A stretch of 64,000 nucleotides of DNA from Piscirickettsia litoralis (GTDB taxonomy: Bacteria; Pseudomonadota; Gammaproteobacteria; Piscirickettsiales; Piscirickettsiaceae), in the NCBI RefSeq assembly GCF_001720395.1, contig NZ_MDTU01000001.1, positions 2,798,444-2,862,443 of the forward strand. Direction: 5' to 3'. A model generated the notes under the pieces. The model searched no databases and was not told the origin of the DNA. It saw only the letters and a list, made by a program, of their open reading frames with translations. This document shows, in pieces, positions 4,933 through 59,574 of the stretch. Position numbers and translations under genes: made by a program. The first letter of the stretch is position 1, and each line of letters begins with the position of its first letter.

Positions 4933-6031
4933 ATGTTGCAGTTAGAAGTCACCACAAAACCGGCCTACAATATTGATATAGATTCAGGGCTATTAAAGTC
5001 AGATCAATTAATACAAGACTGCATCACGCTTTCTAAGCGAATCGTATTAATTACCGATGATCAAGTAAGAACATTGTATGCGGAACAGTTTAGGTCGAAG
5101 CTAGTGGAACAAAGCGCTGAAGTTTTGCTGCTCAGTATAGGTTTGGGTGAGGAGTGCAAAACACGCGAGGTGAAGCAAAGGCTTGAAGATGCCATGCTCG
5201 ATGCAGGCTTTACACGAGATACTTTAGTGATTGCACTTGGCGGTGGAGTGGTGACAGATATTGCGGGCTATTTAGCCGCGACTTATTGTCGTGGTGTGCC
5301 GGTGCTATATATTCCAACTAGTCTACTTGCTATGGTTGATGCCAGCATTGGTGGAAAAACAGGGGTGAATACTCCTTTTGGCAAAAATATGATCGGAACA
5401 ATCACCCAACCTGTGCGTGTTGTGATTGATCCTGGTGTATTGCAGACACTCTCAATGCGAGAACGCAAAGCGGGATTTATAGAGATTTTAAAACATGCTT
5501 TAATCAGTGATCGCGAGTTTTTTGATAAATTAACTGAGAATGCCAAATCTTTGCTAAACTTAGATAATAGAAAAGTACTGGCTGAAGTGATTCTTAAAAG
5601 CTGCCAAGTTAAAAAGCATGTTGTCAGCATCGATGAGCATGAAAAAGGCTTGCGCCAAGTTTTAAATTTAGGTCATACGATAGCCCACGCTTTAGAGATT
5701 GTCAGTGGTCATACCCTTAATCATGGCGAAGCGGTTGCTTTAGGTTTAATGGTTGAAGCTGATTATGCTGTGCGTTTGGGTGTTTTAGCAAAAAGCGAAA
5801 GCGATAAATTAATATATTTCTTAAAAATAAATGGCTTATTACCTAGTATTCCTAGATTAGGGTTAACAGAAATTCTAGCTGCTCTGACTCTTGATTAAAA
5901 AAGTACTGGATAAGAAAGTAAGGTTGGTTTTACTCGAAAAGATCGGTCTTGTTTATGTAAAAGATGGGCAATATAGTCATGTTGTTGATCAAGATATTTT
6001 AAATCAATCTATTCAAGCTATTTTATTTTAA
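4933..6031 (+). CDS. aroB: 3-dehydroquinate synthase (frameshifted near C terminus)
   Basis: Converts DAHP to 3-dehydroquinate with NAD and a divalent metal. The first frame gives 321 residues with GGGVVTDIAGYLAATY (~103), PTSLLAMVDASIGGKTGVN (~129), and metal ligands in LNLGHTIAHALE and NHGEAVALGL. It stops at 5896-5898 after ALTLD. Dropping one T of the TT at 5895-5896 continues as DKKVLDKKVRLVLLEKIG and runs to TAA 6029-6031, giving the usual length of about 365. The missing piece is the normal AroB C terminus, so this is one gene with a single-base break. No aroE or aroQ follows; the next gene is unrelated. Confidence 0.9.
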
Positions 6032-6149
6032 TCCAGTAATTTTAACTCTTTAAGCAGAAAAATATTTGTTTTTGATTTATTCATTTTAATTTAATAAATC
6101 ATGTCTATGCCTTTTGTATGCAACGAAAGAAAATAAAAAGGTATAGCTT

Positions 6150-9100
6150 ATGCGAAAAGAGGCAATCGGTTTGGTTTTAGGGCTATGGGGAAGTATCACA
6201 ATTGCAAGTGATATTCCTCAGGGTGCTGGGCGCTATCTAACTGAGTTACCCGCACAAGATAGTGAGGGAAATAACTTAAGAAGTGTAAAGGGGGTAATCA
6301 AAAAATCGAATAGCTTTCAGGGGCCAATACCGACACATACCTGGTGGTCATCGTTAATTTGGGATTTTAATGGCAACCAGCCTCACTCACAACCGATGTT
6401 TGCCCATCCATTAGCTTTTCAGGCAGAAAAACAAGGATTAGGCATAGGTTATCCTGACCAGCCGATTGTTTATAATATTGAGTGGCAGGGTACTATTTAT
6501 AATCGAGGGGCGGGTTATCGTTACTCTTATCAAAAAGATTTATTAGTTTCTTTGCAAGGTGAGCAGTTTGATAAAACGGTGGCAGAGAGTTACAGCGATT
6601 GGACGGTGGGAGCGCTTTGGCAGAATAGCCAAAACTCACTGAAAGCAACTTTAGGGCACGGTTTACCTTTTATCTATTTTGAGCGCTCTGGTAATCGTCC
6701 TGTAGAAGTGAAGTTAAATCGAGTATCTCAGCGAGCGATTGATTTTCCTTTTAAGTCGAAACGTTATCATTTCGAAAACTTACATGGGAGTTATCAGGGA
6801 GGAAATATTGGATTTAATATTCCTGTTAACGCCTTAGAGCCGGGTGCTGCTGTAAAAGTTAGATTTGCATTAGATTTTGATGGTGACGGCGAATCCGACC
6901 GTATAGAGCAATATGCTTTATTTCCGACTGATGGTTCTAGTGTTTCGTGGGAAATTTATAATGAAAACTCTCATGGCGGTATCGATCAAAACCACAGTTA
7001 TGGTGATTATCAAAATTTTAATAATGGCAATGTTTCGATAGATATTTGGCGTAATTTTGGTTCTGGAGATATCTTAATTGATCAAAGTCAAGCTCGAGTT
7101 GTTTTACCTTATCAGTTAGATCGTACAAATATATTAAATTTTAATAATAATCGTGAAGGAAGTATTGCTAGATTAGAGCAGGATAAAAATGAAGTATGGT
7201 ATCAAAATGCCAACGTGATGGGTTTAAGTGTTAATGGTCATCACTATGGCTTATTTGCCCCCAGTGGCAGTCAATGGAGTGTGAGTGGTAATCGTAGTTT
7301 AATAAGCTCGAATTTAGCAGGAAAAAATTATTGGTCAGTTGCCTTATTACCTGAAAAAAACATTGAGACTTTATTGGAATTTAAGAAATATGCTTATTCT
7401 TTTGTGACATCTGGAAAGGCTAACTATCAGTATCAGCCTGAAAGTTCTGAAATAGTAACAGATTTTATATTGAACTTTGATCAAAAAGAGCCTGCGAATC
7501 ATAATAATCAAACAGTGATGGCTTTATATCCACATCAATGGAAAAATCTACTAGGCTCTCCAACGAATATAGAGTATCAGTCTTCAAGAGGAATGATGAA
7601 GGCGATTATCGATAATAAATTTAAAACAGTGCGAAAATTTTCAGGAATTATATCAAGTCTGCCCATTGATCCCTCTCAACAAGATCACTTGAAAGCCCAA
7701 CTTATTGGTGAATATAACGCATTGCGTAATCAAGGTGGTTTTAGCAAAAAAGATACTTACTGGTTAGGAAAAGAGCTGGGGAAAGTTGCTGAATTTACTT
7801 ATTTGGCTGATCAGCTAAATTTAACCAGTCAGAGAGATTATTTTATTGAGATTTTAAAAAGTAAGCTAGAGGATTGGTTCGAGGCTAAATTATCGTCATT
7901 TTTTTATTACGATCCTACTTGGCAAACATTAATTGGCTATCCTGCTTCTTATGGTAGTGATGATCAGATTAATGATCACCATTTTCATTATGCTTATTTT
8001 ATTCGGGCCGCCGCAGCGGTTGCACGATTTGATTCGGTTTGGGCAAAGCAAAATAATTGGGGCGCGATGGTCAATTTATTGATTAAAGATGCAGCCAATC
8101 ATGAACGGTCAGATGATAGTTTTCCATATTTAAGGCATTTTGACCCTTATGCGGGGCACTCCTGGGCATCAGGCCATGCAGCTTTTGCAGCAGGAAATAA
8201 TCAGGAGTCTTCTTCAGAAGCAATGAATTTTGCCGCCGCAGTTTTGCTTTGGGGCCAAGCAACGGGCCAAGATAGCCTCAGAGATTTAGGTATTTATCTT
8301 TATGAAACCGAAGGCTCAGCAATTGACCAGTACTGGTTTGATGTAGATCAAGATATATTTCCAGAAGGTTATTTACACACAACCGCAGGAATTGTCTGGG
8401 CAGAGGGTGTTGTGTATAGCACCTGGTGGACTGCAAACCCAGAGGAAATTCATGGTATTAACTATTTGCCGATTACAGCAAGTTCGCTTTATTTGGGTCG
8501 ATCTTCAGAATATGTCACACGCAACCTTAATGATTTAAAGAAAACCAATCAGTTTTATCATCAGCAGCGTAATGAACATAGTCGGGCGCACTATTATGAT
8601 CGTTGGCAGGGATTGATTGGGCAATACCAGGCGCTGACTGATACGAACCAGGCTTATCGTCAGTACCAAGAAAACAATAATTTTACACCTGAGTTTGGCA
8701 CCAGTCATGCACAGTTGATCCATTGGTTGACTAGTTTAAACCACTTGGGCTTACCTGACTTCACCATTTATGCGAATGACCCTTTAGCGGTTGTGTTTAC
8801 TAAAAATGGTAAGAAAAACTATGTGGTTGATAACCCTTCAGCACAGAGTAAAACCGTAACATTCTCTAATGGTACAACAGTTATTGCAAAAGCTAATCAG
8901 CTAACGCTAATACATGAGGATAATCTGACTCAACAGCAAGAAACAGGAACTTCAGATAATGCCAATGAGTCTGAAGATAACTCAACGTCAAATGGGCCTG
9001 TTGGTGATCAAAGCGATGATACCTCCTCTTTTTCTGATGGAGTCATTGAACTTGAAGATAATGTCCTACTTAAAATTGATCAGCAGGGCGATGAATATAT

Positions 9101-9650
9101 TATTGAGCTAGAAACCGATAAAGATCGTCGTTATGCCATTATTCATTATTTTGCTAAAAATGGCGTGCCTCAGAATGTGACTCTAACTAAAAATGGACAA
9201 AAATTTACTGGGAGGTTTAGGAATTTAGATGGCAGCCGACCTATACGCTTTACCATCGCAGATGCTGATCGAGTGCAATTCACCACTGCTGCGGTTGATG
9301 TGGTTGTGGCCGATAATAGTGATACCGACTCAGGAGAGCCTACACAAAGCCAGCCGAGTGAAACAGAAGAAAATTTAGGGAGTATGGTGATACTTGAGGA
9401 TAATCTACAGCTGTCAGTTACTCATGATAATGGAATTTATCAAATCCAAGTTGAGAGTCATGAGGAGCGTAGTTATATGATTATTCACTACGTTGATTTT
9501 CGTGGCATTCCTCAAAATGTGACGTTATGGAAGCAAGGTAAAATGTTTTCAGGGCAATTTAGTAACTTAGATGCTGAACAACCTGTATCTTTTACTGTGG
9601 CTGATGAGCAACGAGTACAATTTACGACAGAAAAAATGCAGATTGGTTAA
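6150..9650 (+). CDS. Secreted GH81 endo-1,3-beta-glucanase with two C-terminal CBM56-like repeats
   Basis: Predicted to cleave beta-1,3-glucan (laminarin, callose or algal/fungal wall glucan) outside the cell. The 1166 residues begin with a signal peptide (about 1-20, ending ITIA-SD). The GH81 body spans roughly 25-850; catalytic landmarks are the Asp in NDHHFHYAYFIRAAA (~608) and the two glutamates in NQESSSEAMN (~690), matching the acid and base/nucleophile region of the family, with GHSWASG just before. An acidic Ser/Asp linker (~930-960) leads to two ~88-residue repeats (about 963-1053 and 1076-1166). Both carry LEDN...IIHY....G.PQNVTL..G..F.G.F.NLD, which recalls CBM56, a beta-1,3-glucan-binding module; this is inferred from memory of the family. 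It stands alone, with AAAAGG eight bases before the ATG. Confidence 0.88.
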   Translation: MRKEAIGLVLGLWGSITIASDIPQGAGRYLTELPAQDSEGNNLRSVKGVIKKSNSFQGPIPTHTWWSSLIWDFNGNQPHSQPMFAHPLAFQAEKQGLGIGYPDQPIVYNIEWQGTIYNRGAGYRYSYQKDLLVSLQGEQFDKTVAESYSDWTVGALWQNSQNSLKATLGHGLPFIYFERSGNRPVEVKLNRVSQRAIDFPFKSKRYHFENLHGSYQGGNIGFNIPVNALEPGAAVKVRFALDFDGDGESDRIEQYALFPTDGSSVSWEIYNENSHGGIDQNHSYGDYQNFNNGNVSIDIWRNFGSGDILIDQSQARVVLPYQLDRTNILNFNNNREGSIARLEQDKNEVWYQNANVMGLSVNGHHYGLFAPSGSQWSVSGNRSLISSNLAGKNYWSVALLPEKNIETLLEFKKYAYSFVTSGKANYQYQPESSEIVTDFILNFDQKEPANHNNQTVMALYPHQWKNLLGSPTNIEYQSSRGMMKAIIDNKFKTVRKFSGIISSLPIDPSQQDHLKAQLIGEYNALRNQGGFSKKDTYWLGKELGKVAEFTYLADQLNLTSQRDYFIEILKSKLEDWFEAKLSSFFYYDPTWQTLIGYPASYGSDDQINDHHFHYAYFIRAAAAVARFDSVWAKQNNWGAMVNLLIKDAANHERSDDSFPYLRHFDPYAGHSWASGHAAFAAGNNQESSSEAMNFAAAVLLWGQATGQDSLRDLGIYLYETEGSAIDQYWFDVDQDIFPEGYLHTTAGIVWAEGVVYSTWWTANPEEIHGINYLPITASSLYLGRSSEYVTRNLNDLKKTNQFYHQQRNEHSRAHYYDRWQGLIGQYQALTDTNQAYRQYQENNNFTPEFGTSHAQLIHWLTSLNHLGLPDFTIYANDPLAVVFTKNGKKNYVVDNPSAQSKTVTFSNGTTVIAKANQLTLIHEDNLTQQQETGTSDNANESEDNSTSNGPVGDQSDDTSSFSDGVIELEDNVLLKIDQQGDEYIIELETDKDRRYAIIHYFAKNGVPQNVTLTKNGQKFTGRFRNLDGSRPIRFTIADADRVQFTTAAVDVVVADNSDTDSGEPTQSQPSETEENLGSMVILEDNLQLSVTHDNGIYQIQVESHEERSYMIIHYVDFRGIPQNVTLWKQGKMFSGQFSNLDAEQPVSFTVADEQRVQFTTEKMQIG

Positions 9651-33556: not shown

Positions 33557-34689
33557 ATGCAAGCGACCGCTGTAGAAACATCAAAAGTAAACTTATTAAA
33601 CTTTGACCGTACGGGCTTACAACAATATTTTGAGAGTATTGGTGAGAAGCCATTTCGTGCTCGCCAGGTACTGCAATGGATCCATCAGCGCGGTGTGGTT
33701 AACTTTGATGAAATGACGGATTTGAGTAAAGCACTACGCCAGCGTTTGCATGAGGTTGCTGAGATTGTTGCACCTAAAGTGGTATTCGATAAAGTGTCTG
33801 AAGATGGCACGCGTAAGTGGTTGATTCAGTTGCCAGAAGGTAATTGTATCGAAACTGTATTTATTCCAGAAGGCAAACGTGGGACCTTATGTGTCTCTTC
33901 ACAGGTCGGCTGTGCACTGAATTGTACATTTTGCTCGACGGCAACCCAGGGCTTTAACCGTAATTTGAGCATTAATGAAATTATTGGCCAGGTGTGGGTA
34001 GCCAAGCATGCCTTAGAAAAAGATGTTGATGTACAGAAATCACCGGATCAGCGAGTATTAACTAATGTGGTGATGATGGGCATGGGCGAGCCATTATTAA
34101 ACTTTGAAGCGGTGATGAGTTCGATGAGCTTAATGATGGATGATTATGCCTATGGCCTATCAAAGCGTCGTGTGACTCTGAGCACATCAGGTGTGGTGCC
34201 AGCGCTGTATGAAATGAAAGAGCGTACAGATGCTGCGCTTGCGGTGTCCTTGCATGCGCCAAATGATGAATTACGTAACCAACTTGTTCCTATTAATAAA
34301 AAATATCCTATTGCTGAGTTATTAAAAGCATGTAAAAATTATATCGATGGACGACCTCATGCAAAGATTACCATTGAGTATGTGATGTTACAGGAAATCA
34401 ATGACAGTTTGGAACATGCAGAGCAGCTCACAAAGGTTTTCAAAAAAATTTGCCTTGTAAAATTAATTTGATTCCGTTTAACCCGTTTCCTGGTGCGAAT
34501 TATCAACGCTCTAGCCGCAATCGCATTGTGCGCTTTCAAAATTATTTACTTGAGCGAGATTTTGTTATTACGGTGCGTAAAACACGGGGTGATGATATTG
34601 ATGCGGCTTGTGGGCAGCTCGCTGGTGATTTTGCCGATAAAACGCGTCGTCGTGAGCGTATACAAGCAAAACAGCAGGAGGCTGTGTGA
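33557..34689 (+). CDS. rlmN: Dual-specificity rRNA/tRNA (adenine-C2) methyltransferase RlmN (frameshifted)
   Basis: Radical-SAM enzyme making m2A2503 in 23S rRNA and m2A37 in tRNA. The first frame carries [15 protein letters not shown] (CxxxCxxC, ~118-126), [13 protein letters not shown] and [10 protein letters not shown]. It ends early at 34471 because of an A7 run (34442-34448); with one more A it reads [19 protein letters not shown] and continues to 34689. The second catalytic Cys is in [10 protein letters not shown], so the active site is complete once the frame is restored. The total is about 377 residues. The gene overlaps the start of pilF. Confidence 0.92.
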
Positions 34690-41823: not shown

Positions 41824-42054
41824 GATGCACCTCCTTTTGCTTAAGAACCTTGTTGCAAAATTGATGCCAATGCTGCAACTTTATAGTGAATTTTTTTATC
41901 GATTTTATTTTGTTAAATAATTTTTATTGTCCTGGTACTTTAATTAATGCGTTAAAATGGCAAAAAAACAAACTTTACGGTGTTGAAATTTAAATCATTG
42001 GCATGCAAGTTGCCTAAAACTAATGGTAATTAGTGAACGCTCGATGAGGTGTCT

Positions 42055-42865
42055 ATGCAAATTTGGACCGTTGCAAATCAAAAAGGAGGTGTGGGTAAAA
42101 CGACGACTGCTGTGACTTTGGGTGGGATTTTAGCGAGCCAAGGTAAGCGGGTATTGTTATTAGACTTGGATCCTCACGGCTCATTAACAAGTTATTTGGG
42201 ATATAGTCCTGATAAAATCGAAAAAGGGGCATATGAACTCTTTTTGCAGCAGGGGCACATGTCTGCGGTGATCGGTGATCAAATCATTAAAAGGACAAAT
42301 TTTGCCGGCCTCTGGTTGATTCCGGCATCAATCACTTTGGCAACACTGGATCGTCAATTAGGAACGAAAGAAGGTATGGGGCTGCTGGTGGCCAAGGCGC
42401 TGAAAAAACTTCGTGCCCGCTATGATTATGTCATTATTGATTGCCCACCTATTTTGGGTGTGCTGATGATTAATGCGTTAGCCGCTTGTGAAAAGGTTAT
42501 TATTCCAGCCCAAACAGAATTTCTTGCGCTAAAAGGCTTAGAAAGAATGATCGATACTTTAACGATGGTGAAAAAAAACAAAAAGCTTTAACTTTTCTAC
42601 GGTCATATTACCGACGATGTATGATCGGCGTACTTCAGCAGCTCAAGGTAGTTTAAAAATTCTTGAAGAAAAATATAAAAAGTGGCTATGGAGATTACCT
42701 GTTCCTGTAGATACTAAGCTAAGAGAGGCAAGTCAAATGGGTGTGCCTATCTCATTAATCTACCCGCAAAGTCGAGGCCTGTATGTGTATCAGCAATTTT
42801 TAACGTATTTGCTGGATAGTGAAGTTGAAGACTTATCAAGGAGAGAGCCTGGGGTATTAATATGA
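42055..42865 (+). CDS. ParA/Soj-like ATPase of the chemotaxis locus (ParC type; frameshifted)
   Basis: Deviant-Walker ATPase that in polar flagellates (Vibrio, Pseudomonas) places chemoreceptor arrays at the pole. ATG 42055 is used, with GAGG six bases upstream. Motifs are NQKGGVGKTTTAV (~8-20), LLDLDPHGSLTSYLGY (~36) and VIIDCPPILGVLMINAL (~126). The frame breaks in an A8 run (42571-42578); with one A fewer it reads KKTKSFNFSTVILPTMYDRRTSA and ends at 42865, about 269 residues. The four genes ParA-ParP-CheW-DUF2802 match the end of the Pseudomonas and Vibrio che operon. Confidence 0.85.
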
Positions 42866-43733
42866 TGGATGATGAGACTACAGATATTGATATCCTAGAA
42901 GAAGAGCAAGCCCTTAGCGGTTATTTCGATGCCTTGTTAGGTGTGAATGCTGTGTCAGAAGAAGATAAAAGTACTCTGGAGTTGGAAAAAAAATCGGTAA
43001 ACACAAACGCAAGACATATCGCACCTGTTTTTGAGAATGAAGCAGTTGGGGTTGTTGTTGAGCCCGCTATTGTAACGCCGTTGCCAGATATTCAAGAAAT
43101 AGATGACAGAATCGAAGAAATTGAGATTTCTGAAATTGAAGCGCGTATTATTGCTGAACCCAAACCTGCGATTTTGGAAGAAATCGAAACTGTTATTATT
43201 GATGATCCGGCTGAGTTTATTGCTCCAGATGATCTGCTTGAGACTGAGAAAATTGCTGAAGCTGAATGCGACTCAGGAGTCCCTGCTTGGGCAAGGCAAG
43301 AATTTCAATGTGTGTCGTTTGTGGTGCAGGGGCTGCAATTGATTGTCCCTCTTGAGGGGTTAAGTCAGGTGTATGCACTACAAGAGCAAAAGATAAAAAC
43401 AATTTTTCGGTCAAGCAGATTGGCTTATTGGCATTATGAAACCGGTTGATAAGAGCATTAGTGTTATTGATGCGGCTCACTGGTTATTGCCCGAAACGGC
43501 AGAATGTGCGAAGGCGGCAGATCTACAGCATGAATTTGTTTTAGAACTTGAGGGAAGTACGTGGGGGATTGCTTGTGATGACCTGGGTTTTTCAGAATTT
43601 TTTAAAAGATAGTGACGTGAATTGGCATAATAAAGACCCCAAACGACCCTGGCTAGCTGGTGTTGTTGTTGAAAAAATGTGCGGATTAGTTGATCCCGAG
43701 CATTTTGTGAAATTTTTAAACTCTCAGTCCTGA
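42862..43733 (+). CDS. ParP-like CheW-domain protein (two frameshifts)
   Basis: In Vibrio, ParP links ParC to CheA and receptor arrays. Residues 1-140 are an acidic low-complexity linker (many Glu/Ile/Pro), then a CheW-like domain starts at CVSFVVQGLQLIVPLEGLSQVY. The frame breaks at T5 (43403-43407); removing a T gives IFGQADWLIGIMKPVDKSISVIDAAHWLLP. It breaks again at T6 (43598-43603); removing a T gives SEFLKDSDVNWHNKDPKRPWLAGVVVEK and ends at 43733. Its start overlaps the end of parA by 4 bases. The restored length is about 290 residues. Assignment rests on context and CheW-like features. Confidence 0.75.
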
Positions 43734-43797
43734 GGTTTGCCGGTAAAGTAGACTACAATTTAAGGGATAGGGAGTGGGTAGATAAAGAGGGCTAGAT

Positions 43798-44322
43798 ATG
43801 AGTGATAGCGCTTCAGAAAAAGATCCATTTGATGGGGCAAAAGAGGACAAAGATCCTGTATTGCAATGGGTTACCTTCCGATTAGCAGAAGAAACCTATG
43901 GCATTAATGTGATGCAGGTCCAAGAAGTCTTGCGCTATACAGAGATTGCACCAGTGCCAGGAGCACCCGGTTATGTGATTGGCATCATTAATTTACGCGG
44001 AAACGTTGTGACGGTGATTGATACACGTAAACGGTTTGGTTTGGAATCGCAAGAAACAACAGATAATACGCGAATTGTGATTATTGAAGCTGAGAAACAA
44101 GTGATTGGTATCTTAGTGGATAGTGTGGCAGAGGTGGTTTATCTGAGAGCTTCTGAGATAGAAACGGCACCGAGTGTAGGTAATGAGGAAAGTGCGAAGT
44201 TTATTCAAGGGGTTTCGAACCGAGAAGATGAATTGCTCATCTTGGTTGATTTGAATAAATTGCTCAGCGATGAAGAGTGGGAAGAGATGAATAGTGCGAA
44301 TGCAGGAGCAAATGTTTCGTGA
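43798..44322 (+). CDS. cheW: CheW chemotaxis coupling protein
   Basis: 174-residue scaffold that joins CheA to receptors. It has a ~20-residue charged N-terminal extension, then WVTFRLAEETYGINVMQVQEVLRY, VPGAPGYVIGIINLRGNVVTVIDTRKRFGL and a C-terminal ILVDLNKLLSDEE. The conserved NLRG turn is intact. It is the only unbroken core chemotaxis gene here; no cheA, cheY, cheB or cheR lies in the window. Confidence 0.93.
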   Translation: MSDSASEKDPFDGAKEDKDPVLQWVTFRLAEETYGINVMQVQEVLRYTEIAPVPGAPGYVIGIINLRGNVVTVIDTRKRFGLESQETTDNTRIVIIEAEKQVIGILVDSVAEVVYLRASEIETAPSVGNEESAKFIQGVSNREDELLILVDLNKLLSDEEWEEMNSANAGANVS

Positions 44323-44344
44323 ATCATTTTTGAGTATATGATTA

Positions 44345-44812
44345 ATGATGGATTTTATTGTTCATGGAAGTTTTTTAGTCACTCTTTTACTATTGTGTGG
44401 TTTTTTGTATTATTTTTGGCGCTGTATTAAGCGTTATCGTCGGCAGCTCAATGAGCTGAGCGCGCACTGTCATGTTTTTATGAGCAGTAGCATTGGTGTT
44501 GGGCAACGCTTAGCTTTGTTGGAGCGCTATTTGGGGCGAGACTTATATCAAGAGTTAAACCAAGATGCTTTTCCAGAGCGAGAAGAAAATTTATATCAAC
44601 AGGCTTCAAAGCTCGCTGCATTGGGTATGGGAAAGAAAGAGCTGATTGAAGGGTTCGATTTAACGGATACAGAAGCCGAATTGCTTCAATTAATGTCTAA
44701 AAAACAGTCTGCAATGTCTGATTGTCCTGGCGAAATAGCGAAAAAATCACCATTGCAGAAAAATAAAGATGTTCAAGGCATTCAGCAATATAAAAATTAC
44801 CAACAAGATTAA
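44345..44812 (+). CDS. DUF2802 protein of the che locus
   Basis: 155-residue protein with an N-terminal membrane helix (VHGSFLVTLLLLCGFLYYFW), a coiled segment (RQLNELSAHCHVFMSSSIGVGQRL) and a C-terminal helix-turn-helix-like ASKLAALGMGKKELIEGFDLTDTEAELL. This is the outline of DUF2802, which follows CheW in Pseudomonas and Vibrio che operons. The function is unknown. ATG 44345 or ATG 44348 may start it. Confidence 0.75.
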   Translation: MMDFIVHGSFLVTLLLLCGFLYYFWRCIKRYRRQLNELSAHCHVFMSSSIGVGQRLALLERYLGRDLYQELNQDAFPEREENLYQQASKLAALGMGKKELIEGFDLTDTEAELLQLMSKKQSAMSDCPGEIAKKSPLQKNKDVQGIQQYKNYQQD

Positions 44813-44940: not shown

Positions 44941-45005
44941 ATTACACTAACGTTTTAAAATAGTGCAATATTCTTCTTTTTTTGTTTAAGGGAGTTAGGT
45001 ATTTT

Positions 45006-45779
45006 ATGCCTCGTCCGGGTTTAACATATGATGAAATAACAGAAGCTGCTAATCGTGTTTTAGCGGCCGGTGAAAAACCAACGATTAACCGTGTCCGTGA
45101 AGCATTAGGAGGGCGGGGGAGTAGCACGACGATCAGTCGTTATCTAAAAGACTGGAAGCGTCAAGTGCAAGAAGGTCAACTGGCTGAGCCGCAAAAGGTA
45201 GAAACCGAAGAAAGTACTGCTAAAAAAGAAGTTGCAGTACCCGCAGCATCTGTAGAAGAGCAAGCGTCAGTCGTAGCTCCAGTGGAAGCTGCAGCGGTCG
45301 AGTCTGCAATTTCTATCGATGAAGAGTTGCAGTTGTGTTTTAGCGAAGAAGAATATGAATTGCCTGCGGTTACAAATGAGCAATTTAGGCCGGTTGAAAC
45401 GGATTCTGAACTAGAAGCGTTAAGGCGCGAACATGAAGCACTGAAAATTCAGTTTCGTCGCTTAAATTCTGCAGTTAATAAAGAGCGCATTCGCCGTCAA
45501 GCTTTTGAAATGTTAGCGCGAGAAGCTAAAGAGTATGTGAATGTGATCAAAGAGCAAGTGGGTCAGCGGATTTTGGATTTGCGTATGGCTTCTGATCAGA
45601 CGATTAATCAGCTCAAAGCTCATGCCCGTGAAGCAAAGCAAGAGTCTGAGCGTGAGCTTAAATTTTATCGCGAAGAGCTAATGCGAATTCAAAAGGAAAC
45701 AGGCAGAAGTGGTTCGCACTCGAAGAATTCTATGGCAACAGGTCGTGGGCCACGCCGTCAAATGACAACTAGTTCTTAA
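45006..45779 (+). CDS. KfrA-like DNA-binding protein with coiled coil
   Basis: 257 residues. The N-terminal ~60 residues (GLTYDEITEAANRVLAAG, TINRVREALGGRGSSTTISRYL, WK) match the KfrA_N-type helix-turn-helix found in plasmid protein KfrA. A Glu/Ala-rich linker follows (~65-130), and then a long coiled coil (~135-230, ELEALRREHEALKIQFRRLN) and a basic tail. ATG 45006 is used; the TTG at 44982 is poorer. In plasmids such proteins help partition or repression, but the chromosomal role is unknown. The last 11 bases overlap the convergent CheX-like gene. Confidence 0.8.
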   Translation: MPRPGLTYDEITEAANRVLAAGEKPTINRVREALGGRGSSTTISRYLKDWKRQVQEGQLAEPQKVETEESTAKKEVAVPAASVEEQASVVAPVEAAAVESAISIDEELQLCFSEEEYELPAVTNEQFRPVETDSELEALRREHEALKIQFRRLNSAVNKERIRRQAFEMLAREAKEYVNVIKEQVGQRILDLRMASDQTINQLKAHAREAKQESERELKFYREELMRIQKETGRSGSHSKNSMATGRGPRRQMTTSS

Positions 45780-46626
45780 ATAGGAACTCAACCATTAAGT
45801 CGCCGTGGGCAGATGCGAGCTCAACGGTGACTTGGTGGGCACATTCAGGCCCTTTCTCTTCTGATTTTCGATATGAAAAGGGCGGCTTAGCGTGGACCAT
45901 GCAGTCGAGTGTTCCCAGCTTTCCACAACCGTGACCGATAACAATATTGACGTATTCAGAAGCCGCATCGATGCTTAGTGGTGTTATTTCTCGATGGTTT
46001 TCATCCATGAGCAATTTACTGGCAACATTGACGACAAGCTCTTCAGGCATCGTCAGGGTGTAATAGAAATTTTTCTCTCCAGTGATTTCTTGGGCAAAGG
46101 TGTAGTGATTCCCTGAAATTTCTTTGGCTTCTGTGCCAACATCAGTAATTTTTACCACCTCACGGGCGATGCGTAAAAACATTTTCAGCGTATGATCTAG
46201 CATCGCTTTGACCACAAGAGCTTCTGGAATGTTATCTAGATCTGCTTTTAAGAGCTCTTCATGTTCCTCTTGAGCCTTTTTGTGGGCTTGTATTTCCCTG
46301 TCGAGGATATCTTTTTCGATGTGCCCCAGGGTTAACAAGGCTTCACCAAAGAAAATACGACGCTCTTTTTGTGTGCTTAGCAGTTCACCTACTTGTTCAT
46401 CGGTAATTAACTTTAGGTCTGCTGCAATTTCACCGAATTTGCGGTCACTTCTTTGTTGTTCCGCATTAATAGAAGTCACTTGGTTTTCGGTGAGCCACCC
46501 TTTCTCTATTGCGACTTCGCCCAGAGACACATTATGCTTTTTTTGGTGTTCTATAGCGTCAATGAGGGCTTCAGGACCTATTAAGCCTCTTTCGAGTAAC
46601 CATTGTCCAAAGAAGTTTGCAGCCAT
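45769..46626 (-). CDS. MshEN-like repeats fused to a CheX-type domain
   Basis: 285 residues. The N-terminal half holds four ~24-residue units of the pattern [FL]-G-x-x-[LA]-x-x-x-x-[LIW]-[IL]-x-x-x-x-[LV]: FFGQWLLERGLIGPEAL, SLGEVAIEKGWLTENQV, KFGEIAADLKLITDEQV and FFGEALLTLGHIEKDIL. This resembles the MshEN (T2SSE-N) c-di-GMP-binding motif, but the leading Arg of RLGxx is missing in each unit. The C-terminal half (about 140-285) resembles CheX, with EYVNIVIGHGCGKL, where CheX has E..N...G. It lies 15 bases downstream of a response-regulator gene, its likely partner. Family assignment is by eye. Confidence 0.65.
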   Translation of the reverse strand: MAANFFGQWLLERGLIGPEALIDAIEHQKKHNVSLGEVAIEKGWLTENQVTSINAEQQRSDRKFGEIAADLKLITDEQVGELLSTQKERRIFFGEALLTLGHIEKDILDREIQAHKKAQEEHEELLKADLDNIPEALVVKAMLDHTLKMFLRIAREVVKITDVGTEAKEISGNHYTFAQEITGEKNFYYTLTMPEELVVNVASKLLMDENHREITPLSIDAASEYVNIVIGHGCGKLGTLDCMVHAKPPFSYRKSEEKGPECAHQVTVELASAHGDLMVEFLFKN

Positions 46627-46641
46627 GATATCTCCCCTGCG

Positions 46642-47014
46642 CTATAGTTTTGTCAAAGTTCTAAGGACAACTAAGACACTTTCTTTGTCGTAAGGCTTGA
46701 GTAAATAACCTTTGGCGCCGATAGAGATAGCTTCTTCGACTACATCTTCTTGGCCCATAGAAGTCGCCATAACAACCTGAGCTTCGGGATCAAACTCGAT
46801 GATTTTTTTGAGAGATGTCATGCCATCTAGCTCTGGCATGACAATGTCCATCAGGACAAAGTTGGGTCGCAGGGTTTTGTATTTCTCAAACCCGTCATTG
46901 CCATTATGGGCGACATCAATAACATCGAACTCTGACCCATCAAGGAGGTTTTTTAGCAATCCCGTGTATAGTGTTTGAGTCGTCGACGGTAAGTACGGTG
47001 TACGTTTTGTCCAC
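46642..47014 (-). CDS. CheY-like single-domain response regulator (frameshifted)
   Basis: The receiver domain starts at GTG 47014, preceded by GGGAGAG on the minus strand, and reads VDKTYTVLTVDDSNTIHGIAK (Asp pair in VDDS). It breaks at a T6 run (46949-46954 on the plus strand); with one base fewer it continues KNLLDGSEFDVIDVAHNG into the long frame. The phospho-acceptor is in VLMDIVMPELDGM (~57), the conserved Thr/Ser in VMATSMG (~85), and the Lys in LLKPYD (~107). The total is about 123 residues with no output domain. The neighbouring CheX-type protein is a candidate phosphatase for it. Confidence 0.82.
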
Positions 47015-58392: not shown

Positions 58393-59559
58393 ATGGCAGA
58401 GAGGGTTGGTTATAAAACATCTTTACTAAAATCGCTGTGCATTCACGCATTGATTTTGGCGGGGTTTGCTGTTGCATTGCAAGCACCGGACACAGTGAGG
58501 CATTTTGCAGGGGAGGAGGCGAAAGTGGTCAAGGCGACCATGATTAGCCCAAAAGCTGTTGACCAAGCGGTGGCTGCAATGAATCAAGCCCACGACCAGC
58601 AAGTAGCGAAGGCGGTGGCCGAGAAAAAACAAGTCGATAAGCAACTATTACAAGCTAAGCAAGAGCGTGAAAAAACTCAAAAAATGCTCGAGCAGTTAAA
58701 AAAACAAAATGCATTAGCAGCTAGCAAGCGTGAACAGATGCTAAAAAGTATTGCAAGTGCAAAAGAGCAACAGCAGCAAGCACAGAAAAAACTTGAGCAA
58801 GCAAAAATCGCACAAAAAAGGGCCGCATTACAAGCCGCTAAAAATAAGGCTGAATTAAAGCAGCAAATTAATGCACTAAAGCGAGAGAAAGTCAAAGTCG
58901 AAAAGGCGTTGGCTGAAAAAAAAAGCGTGAATTAGAAAAAAAGCACCAAGCAGAAAAACAACGTAAGCGTGAGCAGGCGCGCAAGCAAGCCCTAGAGAAA
59001 AAGCGTACAGAAGAAAAAAAACGGCAGCAACAAGCTTTAGAGAAGAAAAAACGCGAAGCGGCAGTGGCTGCAAAAAAAGCGCCAAGCTAAAATTGCTGCT
59101 GAAAAGAAACGTCAAGCGAAAGAGGCAGCACGTCAGGCAAAAATTGCTGCAGAGAAAAAGCGTCAAGAAGCACTGGCCCGTTTAAGGGCAAATGCACAGT
59201 CAAGCATCGCAAATCAGCTAGCAGAAAATGCGAAAGCTGCTGCCGCACGCTCAGCACGACAAAAGTATGTTCAATCAGAGGTTGATAAGTACTCAGGTCT
59301 TATTCGAGCAACAATTCAAAGCCATTGGAATCAAGCAAATATTGACCCTAACTTAAATGCGCTTCTTCAAGTGCATGTTAATTTAAGCGGTGATATTCTA
59401 TCTGTAAAAGTGGTGAAATCTAGCGGTAATACAATTTTTGATCGCCAAGCAAGGCTTGCTGTACTTAGTGCGGGACGTTTGCCAATGCCTACAGATAAAG
59501 ATGTAGCGAAGCAGTTTTTAAGTTTTAATTTTCATTTTACGCCGCAAGGGGTGAGTTAG
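58393..59559 (+). CDS. tolA: Tol-Pal system protein TolA (two frameshifts)
   Basis: Trans-periplasmic rod that pulls on Pal and TolB. Residues 1-35 hold the membrane anchor (SLCIHALILAGFAVAL). A very long Lys/Gln/Ala/Glu coiled coil fills about 55-270. The C-terminal domain (GLIRATIQSHWNQANIDPNLNA, GDILSVKVVKSSGNTIFDRQA) is of TolA/TonB type. The coiled coil is broken twice: at A9 (58916-58924; one more A restores KKRELEKKHQ) and at A7 (59072-59078; one fewer restores AAKKRQAKIAAEKK). The restored length is about 388 residues. Confidence 0.9.
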
Positions 59560-59574
59560 GTTGTGGAGGATGTA

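Follow-up and report, generated by a model that had tools for sequence, protein, structure and literature searches.

Where the second messenger cyclic di-GMP (c-di-GMP) meets two-component signalling, the link usually runs via changed kinases, chemoreceptor methylation or motor proteins. In phosphatases of the CheC/CheX/FliY family, it is the Glu and Asn of an ExxN motif that catalyse the dephosphorylation of CheY; Thermotoga uses CheX, and both the Thermotoga maritima protein (1xko) and its Borrelia counterpart (in the CheX–CheY3 complex 3hzh) are free-standing, carry no N-terminal nucleotide-sensor array and have a role in flagellar chemotaxis, whereas Piscirickettsia keeps CheZ too. The MshEN domain is described in the main text of Wang et al. 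2016 as a 24-residue motif plus a five-residue spacer, and one survey sentence there lists CheX among the domains associated with MshEN (PMC5013675). Here we describe a gene pair in a 64,000-nucleotide stretch of Piscirickettsia litoralis (contig NZ_MDTU01000001.1, positions 2,798,444 to 2,862,443; the whole stretch is called the window below), in which a CheY-like receiver gene precedes a gene for a protein that is predicted to fuse four MshEN-type motifs to a CheX domain with an intact catalytic motif. The same two domain types thus occur in one protein in the association listed in 2016, for which that main text gives neither a partner receiver nor a mechanism, and because it was listed we regard the receiver–fusion module as an uncharacterised variant of known parts with a conserved partner and not as a new class. 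The initial annotation had known of no characterised system with this architecture, and indeed a literature search, conducted mostly without subscription papers, found no study of an MshEN–CheX fusion or its circuit; the association itself, however, was already on record.

The fusion gene (45769..46626, on the minus strand, like every feature of the pair) encodes 285 residues and is defined by the open reading frame list, profiles, a structure model and a fold search. Within its first 120 residues, four 24-residue motifs begin at residues 5, 34, 63 and 92, in an exact 29-residue register: motif 1 (residues 5–28, FFGQWLLERGLIGPEALIDAIEHQ, 46543..46614), motif 2 (residues 34–57, 46456..46527), motif 3 (residues 63–86, 46369..46440) and motif 4 (residues 92–115, 46282..46353). 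In each of the six proteins examined, self-similarity of the array peaks at lags of 29 and 58, with a lag-29 score that was reached by none of 5000 shuffles, and the NCBIfam model NF053729 (MshE-related c-di-GMP motif; 70.7 bits, cutoff 38) matches three stretches, residues 6–57 among them. The Gly of every LG is retained in all four motifs, with position 2 often Phe for Leu; these four glycines, together with Gln28, Gln57 and Gln86, are kept in 6/6 gammaproteobacterial proteins. As for the first residue of each motif, the successive motifs have Phe, Ser, Lys and Phe, so that the missing RLG arginines of the initial annotation hold good for motifs 1, 2 and 4 but not quite for motif 3, where Lys63 takes the Arg position and three distant gammaproteobacterial relatives do have Arg.

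The C-terminal half (residues about 136–285, 45772..46221) is assigned to CheX by Pfam PF13690 (30.8 bits, gathering score 27; distant relatives score between 20.5 and 32.7 bits), by profile match to CheX structures and by Foldseek. Present within it are the elements of the catalytic signature of the family, [D/S]xxxExxN and a distal proline: D220-AAS-E224-YV-N227 (45946..45969), with D, E and N invariant in the six gammaproteobacterial sequences and likewise found in [Eubacterium] eligens, and Pro248-Pro249 (45880..45885), invariant in the same six. A sequence profile of the family retrieves both c-di-GMP-bound MshE (5htl, 7.6e-6) and CheX (3hm4, 3.6e-6), as well as the CheX structures 3h4y and 1xko, and both the fusion and the receiver are under strong purifying selection.

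An AlphaFold2 model built from a six-sequence alignment (mean predicted local distance difference test score 87) gives eight helices arranged as four pairs, followed by a further helix and a mixed alpha-beta domain with the CheX fold. Searched against the PDB with Foldseek, it finds CheX structures at the top (1xko with a template modelling score of 0.84 by target length, E-value 2.2e-10), and the matches include the Borrelia CheX–CheY complex 3hzh; the complex of Thermus PilF GSPII-B with c-di-GMP superposes on the model with 1.1 A over 56 residues, a match with a weak E-value (0.13) and a probability of 1.00. Since the profile matches, the confidently predicted structure and the fold searches concur, the predicted domain composition is confirmed, and the initial proposal of four MshEN-type repeats and a CheX-type domain in one protein stands, with repeats that are MshEN-like and a CheX fold in the C-terminal half of the model.

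The resemblance to known proteins is accordingly one of parts. With the CheX phosphatases the fusion has in common the fold, the DxxxExxN...P motif and a CheY-like partner. It shares with the MshEN of Vibrio cholerae MshE the 24-residue motifs, their 29-residue spacing and the helix pairs, but has four motifs instead of two, replaced arginines, Asn54 and His115, and no MshEN_C subdomain, and its predicted output is a phosphatase whereas that of MshE is an ATPase. A parallel for motifs 3 and 4 is GSPII-B of Thermus thermophilus PilF (8pdk), whose non-Arg first residues are likewise basic and then hydrophobic; it regulates a pilus ATPase, and the fusion differs from it in a motif 4 that ends in His and a motif 2 with Asn54. 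Terminal MshEN-like segments of NfrB and EpsG (C- or N-terminal) also match the array in sequence, under the family cutoff, but unlike the fusion they are joined to glycosyltransferase or tyrosine kinase modules.

The receiver gene (46642..47014, GTG start at 47014; PF00072, 75 bits) ends 15 bp upstream of the fusion start, and its best PDB matches include Thermotoga CheY. By alignment, the frame of the window copy is shifted by one base at a homopolymer near 46949, which leaves an open frame of 105 residues from 46959 and was overlooked by the initial annotation when it placed a lone receiver beside the fusion. In both sampled congeners, P. salmonis LF-89 and strain NZ-RLO1 (L032 and L033), the receiver is intact at 123 residues; the LF-89 orthologue has an acidic pocket (VDDS), a phosphoacceptor Asp (D56), Ser/Thr (T84/S85) and Lys (K106), with the columns of D56, S85 and K106 invariant.

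Among several hundred genomes searched in the class and phylum, the full-length fusion turned up in the three Piscirickettsia genomes and in three further families (G014, G196 and G295), and in each of these four bacterial families the receiver gene lies immediately upstream. The genes flanking the pair otherwise vary between families; in G014 a gene for an EAL domain (161 bits), the EAL phosphodiesterase type, directly follows the fusion. In [Eubacterium] eligens, plasmid records contain a 435-residue protein, annotated only as a response regulator (L109:5001-6308), in which an MshEN-type array (NF053729, 46.3 bits) is followed by CheX and a C-terminal receiver; its CheX match is weak and under the Pfam cutoff, its DxxxExxN is intact, and it aligns with residues 1–259 of the window protein at 25% identity. 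This single-chain version is good evidence that the predicted parts work together and, because the pair recurs in four families and all three modules form one polypeptide in E. eligens, the pairing read from these genes is real. A protein scan of genome contigs matched only the two Piscirickettsia relatives, a scan of viral contigs gave no match, and the orders to which G295 and G196 belong, each sampled with few genomes, yielded no further members.

Other arrays of this kind came up as well. A 299-residue frame of G537 was considered as a distant fusion and set aside, its C-terminal half having no Pfam match and no ExxN by eye; in the 287-residue G537 protein at L103:4569-5432, the MshEN-type array (46.2 bits) is joined to a C-terminal half for which Pfam gives no match. 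In family f207 of the phylum, four MshEN-type motifs make up stand-alone proteins of about 140–150 residues (L104:3197-3628 and L106:3225-3677); their neighbours are a receiver and a histidine kinase in L104 and a CHASE4-PAS hybrid kinase in L106.

How might such a module work? In our proposal, a kinase encoded elsewhere would phosphorylate the CheY-like receiver, from which the neighbouring fusion would strip the phosphate off again through Glu224 and Asn227 of its CheX domain. The four-motif array would sense a cyclic dinucleotide, with c-di-GMP the likeliest, and would tune how active the phosphatase is or how readily it reaches the receiver. In this way the lifetime of the phosphorylated receiver would be set by the second messenger. 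The parts of this scheme do not all stand equally firm. That the receiver is the substrate of the fusion is strongly suggested by the gene pair together with the single-chain version, and we consider it probable; to the full model, of a second-messenger-gated CheX phosphatase acting on its own receiver, we would give an even chance at best, and its most specific form, a c-di-GMP-gated CheX-type aspartyl-phosphate phosphatase with a dedicated receiver, the two being encoded by paired genes in gammaproteobacteria and joined in a single chain in Bacillota, is put forward tentatively, at somewhat less than that. The initial annotation had arrived at a similar circuit, in which a messenger controls dephosphorylation of the receiver, and the idea fits the invariant motif, the pair in four families and the E. 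eligens chain; what does not survive is the argument that was drawn from the arginines. If the model is true, it would join a second messenger directly to a response regulator in a new way, with the messenger setting, via a separate phosphatase, how fast the regulator is dephosphorylated. A messenger-sensing phosphatase and its dedicated receiver would form a two-protein system small enough to be rebuilt in vitro, and the array would probe how far an MshEN site can drift, with no Arg and with Asn in the guanine cluster, and yet bind its ligand.

The choice of ligand is where the alternatives have to be weighed. The missing arginines had been taken as a sign that the ligand may be different or lost, a reading that is not supported: Thermus PilF GSPII-B has Lys and Leu at the Arg positions, without any arginine, and binds c-di-GMP at 6 nM, and its authors widened the consensus to R/K/L and proposed that high affinity can be predicted from a hydrophobic residue at this position (PMC11731258). 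Because that domain binds without arginine, the missing arginines alone are no argument against c-di-GMP, and we have rejected them as proof of lost binding. Measured against the extended consensus (R/K/L)LG...G...L...L...Q, from which Asn54 and His115 deviate, the pair of motifs 3 and 4 comes closest and, with Lys and then Phe as first residues, is the best candidate for a c-di-GMP site on sequence grounds. The EAL gene next to the G014 fusion is consistent with this ligand, as is an intact GGDEF enzyme in Piscirickettsia, the searched genomes of which have two to three GGDEF domains, one of them with an intact GGDEF motif, plus an EAL protein. Several observations nonetheless weigh against a c-di-GMP-gated phosphatase. 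Asn54, at position 21 of motif 2, is found in 7/7 proteins, E. eligens included, where the equivalent Leu of MshEN packs under guanine; Ser34 occupies the Arg position of the same motif, and in PilF GSPII-A a construct with Ser at that position no longer bound (PMC12002112). His115, at position 24 of motif 4 where Gln is usual, is present in 5/6 gammaproteobacterial proteins, and the changes that needed reversion in the non-binding GSPII-A included a His at the corresponding place in motif I (PMC12002112). In addition, the Pfam MshEN model (T2SSE_N) finds no match to the fusion at an E-value of 10; the full fusion is rare, at 6/369 sampled genomes of the class; and a canonical CheZ also exists in the genus, near CheA elsewhere in the genome, which means that ordinary chemotaxis does not require the phosphatase. 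With Asn54 and His115 conserved at canonical positions, c-di-GMP is left in doubt, and while we infer both this ligand and its control of the phosphatase, we lean only slightly towards c-di-GMP as what the array would bind.

These same residues are the strength of a rival in which CheX dephosphorylates the paired receiver and the array, binding no nucleotide, is a helical scaffold that serves to dimerise or localise the protein or to capture the receiver, with a phosphatase that is constitutive or otherwise controlled. Asn54 and His115 displace canonical ligand residues, family-invariant residues such as Asn32, Glu47, Asp61 and Arg90 are found away from the canonical ligand positions, and MshEN-like domains with lost binding are known in XpsE and PilF GSPII-A (PMC5013675, PMC12002112). 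A scaffold, however, would have no use for the four glycines and three glutamines that are kept in 6/6 proteins, and the EAL gene adjoining the fusion in G014 does not suit it either; we regard it as rather unlikely. That the substitutions are conserved and not random, with Asn54 shared by gammaproteobacteria and a member of the Bacillota, can also be read as a site remodelled for another ligand, such as cyclic GMP-AMP (cGAMP) or another nucleotide, bound between motifs 1 and 2 or 2 and 3 and gating the phosphatase, and weak binding of cGAMP by MshEN is on record (PMC5013675). Yet no gene for another cyclic dinucleotide lies beside any member, the one informative neighbour being the EAL gene, and Piscirickettsia does have an intact GGDEF enzyme, which together make this explanation quite improbable. 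Finally, the pair might be decaying here, the fusion being left as an orphan without a working partner, as the frameshifted receiver and the broken parA and parC genes nearby could suggest. Against this stands the nature of the P. litoralis Y2 draft (3,897,429 bases in 16 contigs), which was assembled from 454 reads alone and carries 576 annotated pseudogenes (PMC5095486). Where indels break the frame of coding genes in the compared stretch, they are insertions of one base, located at a short homopolymer or adjacent to one, and past the frameshift the receiver has a ratio of nonsynonymous to synonymous substitution rates of about 0.04. On these grounds, and with intact relatives, the frameshift is likely a sequencing artefact of 454 homopolymer error; we have rejected the pseudogene reading of the receiver, and decay of the pair is very improbable indeed.

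Further genes in the window appear frameshifted in the same way, their remainder lying in another frame (4933-6050, 33557-34650, 42049-42865, 42862-43790 and 58393-59560; we take the genes to be aroB-, rlmN-, parA-, parC- and tolA-like), and these too are compatible with 454 homopolymer error of the assembly.

As for the genomic setting, the NF053729 profile detects no second MshEN protein in the window genome; this genome does have PilZ matches, and the fusion need not therefore be its sole c-di-GMP receptor. The thought that the fusion replaces CheZ was rejected on account of the CheZ that Piscirickettsia has close to CheA. In the window genome, a second CheA-type kinase and the sole EAL domain, the latter split by a stop or frame change, are seen at G000:C1:647210-647392 and G000:C1:1019303-1019994; this second kinase was not found in G001 or G002. 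Near the pair, on the opposite strand (42049-44812), are parA-, parC-, cheW- and DUF2802-type genes, which usually end a flagellar or chemotaxis cluster and here stand apart from cheA/cheZ (near 602-604 kb of contig 1); we see no sign that these nearby genes belong to the receiver–fusion module. Convergent with the fusion, and overlapping its 3' end by 11 bp, is a gene for a DNA-binding protein with a KfrA_N domain (44982-45779, 46.8 bits), an arrangement that is identical in P. salmonis and NZ-RLO1 (L032, L033). Farther away in the window, at 6150-9650, lies the gene for a secreted-looking protein of 1166 residues, which we presume to resemble a GH81-like endo-beta-1,3-glucanase.
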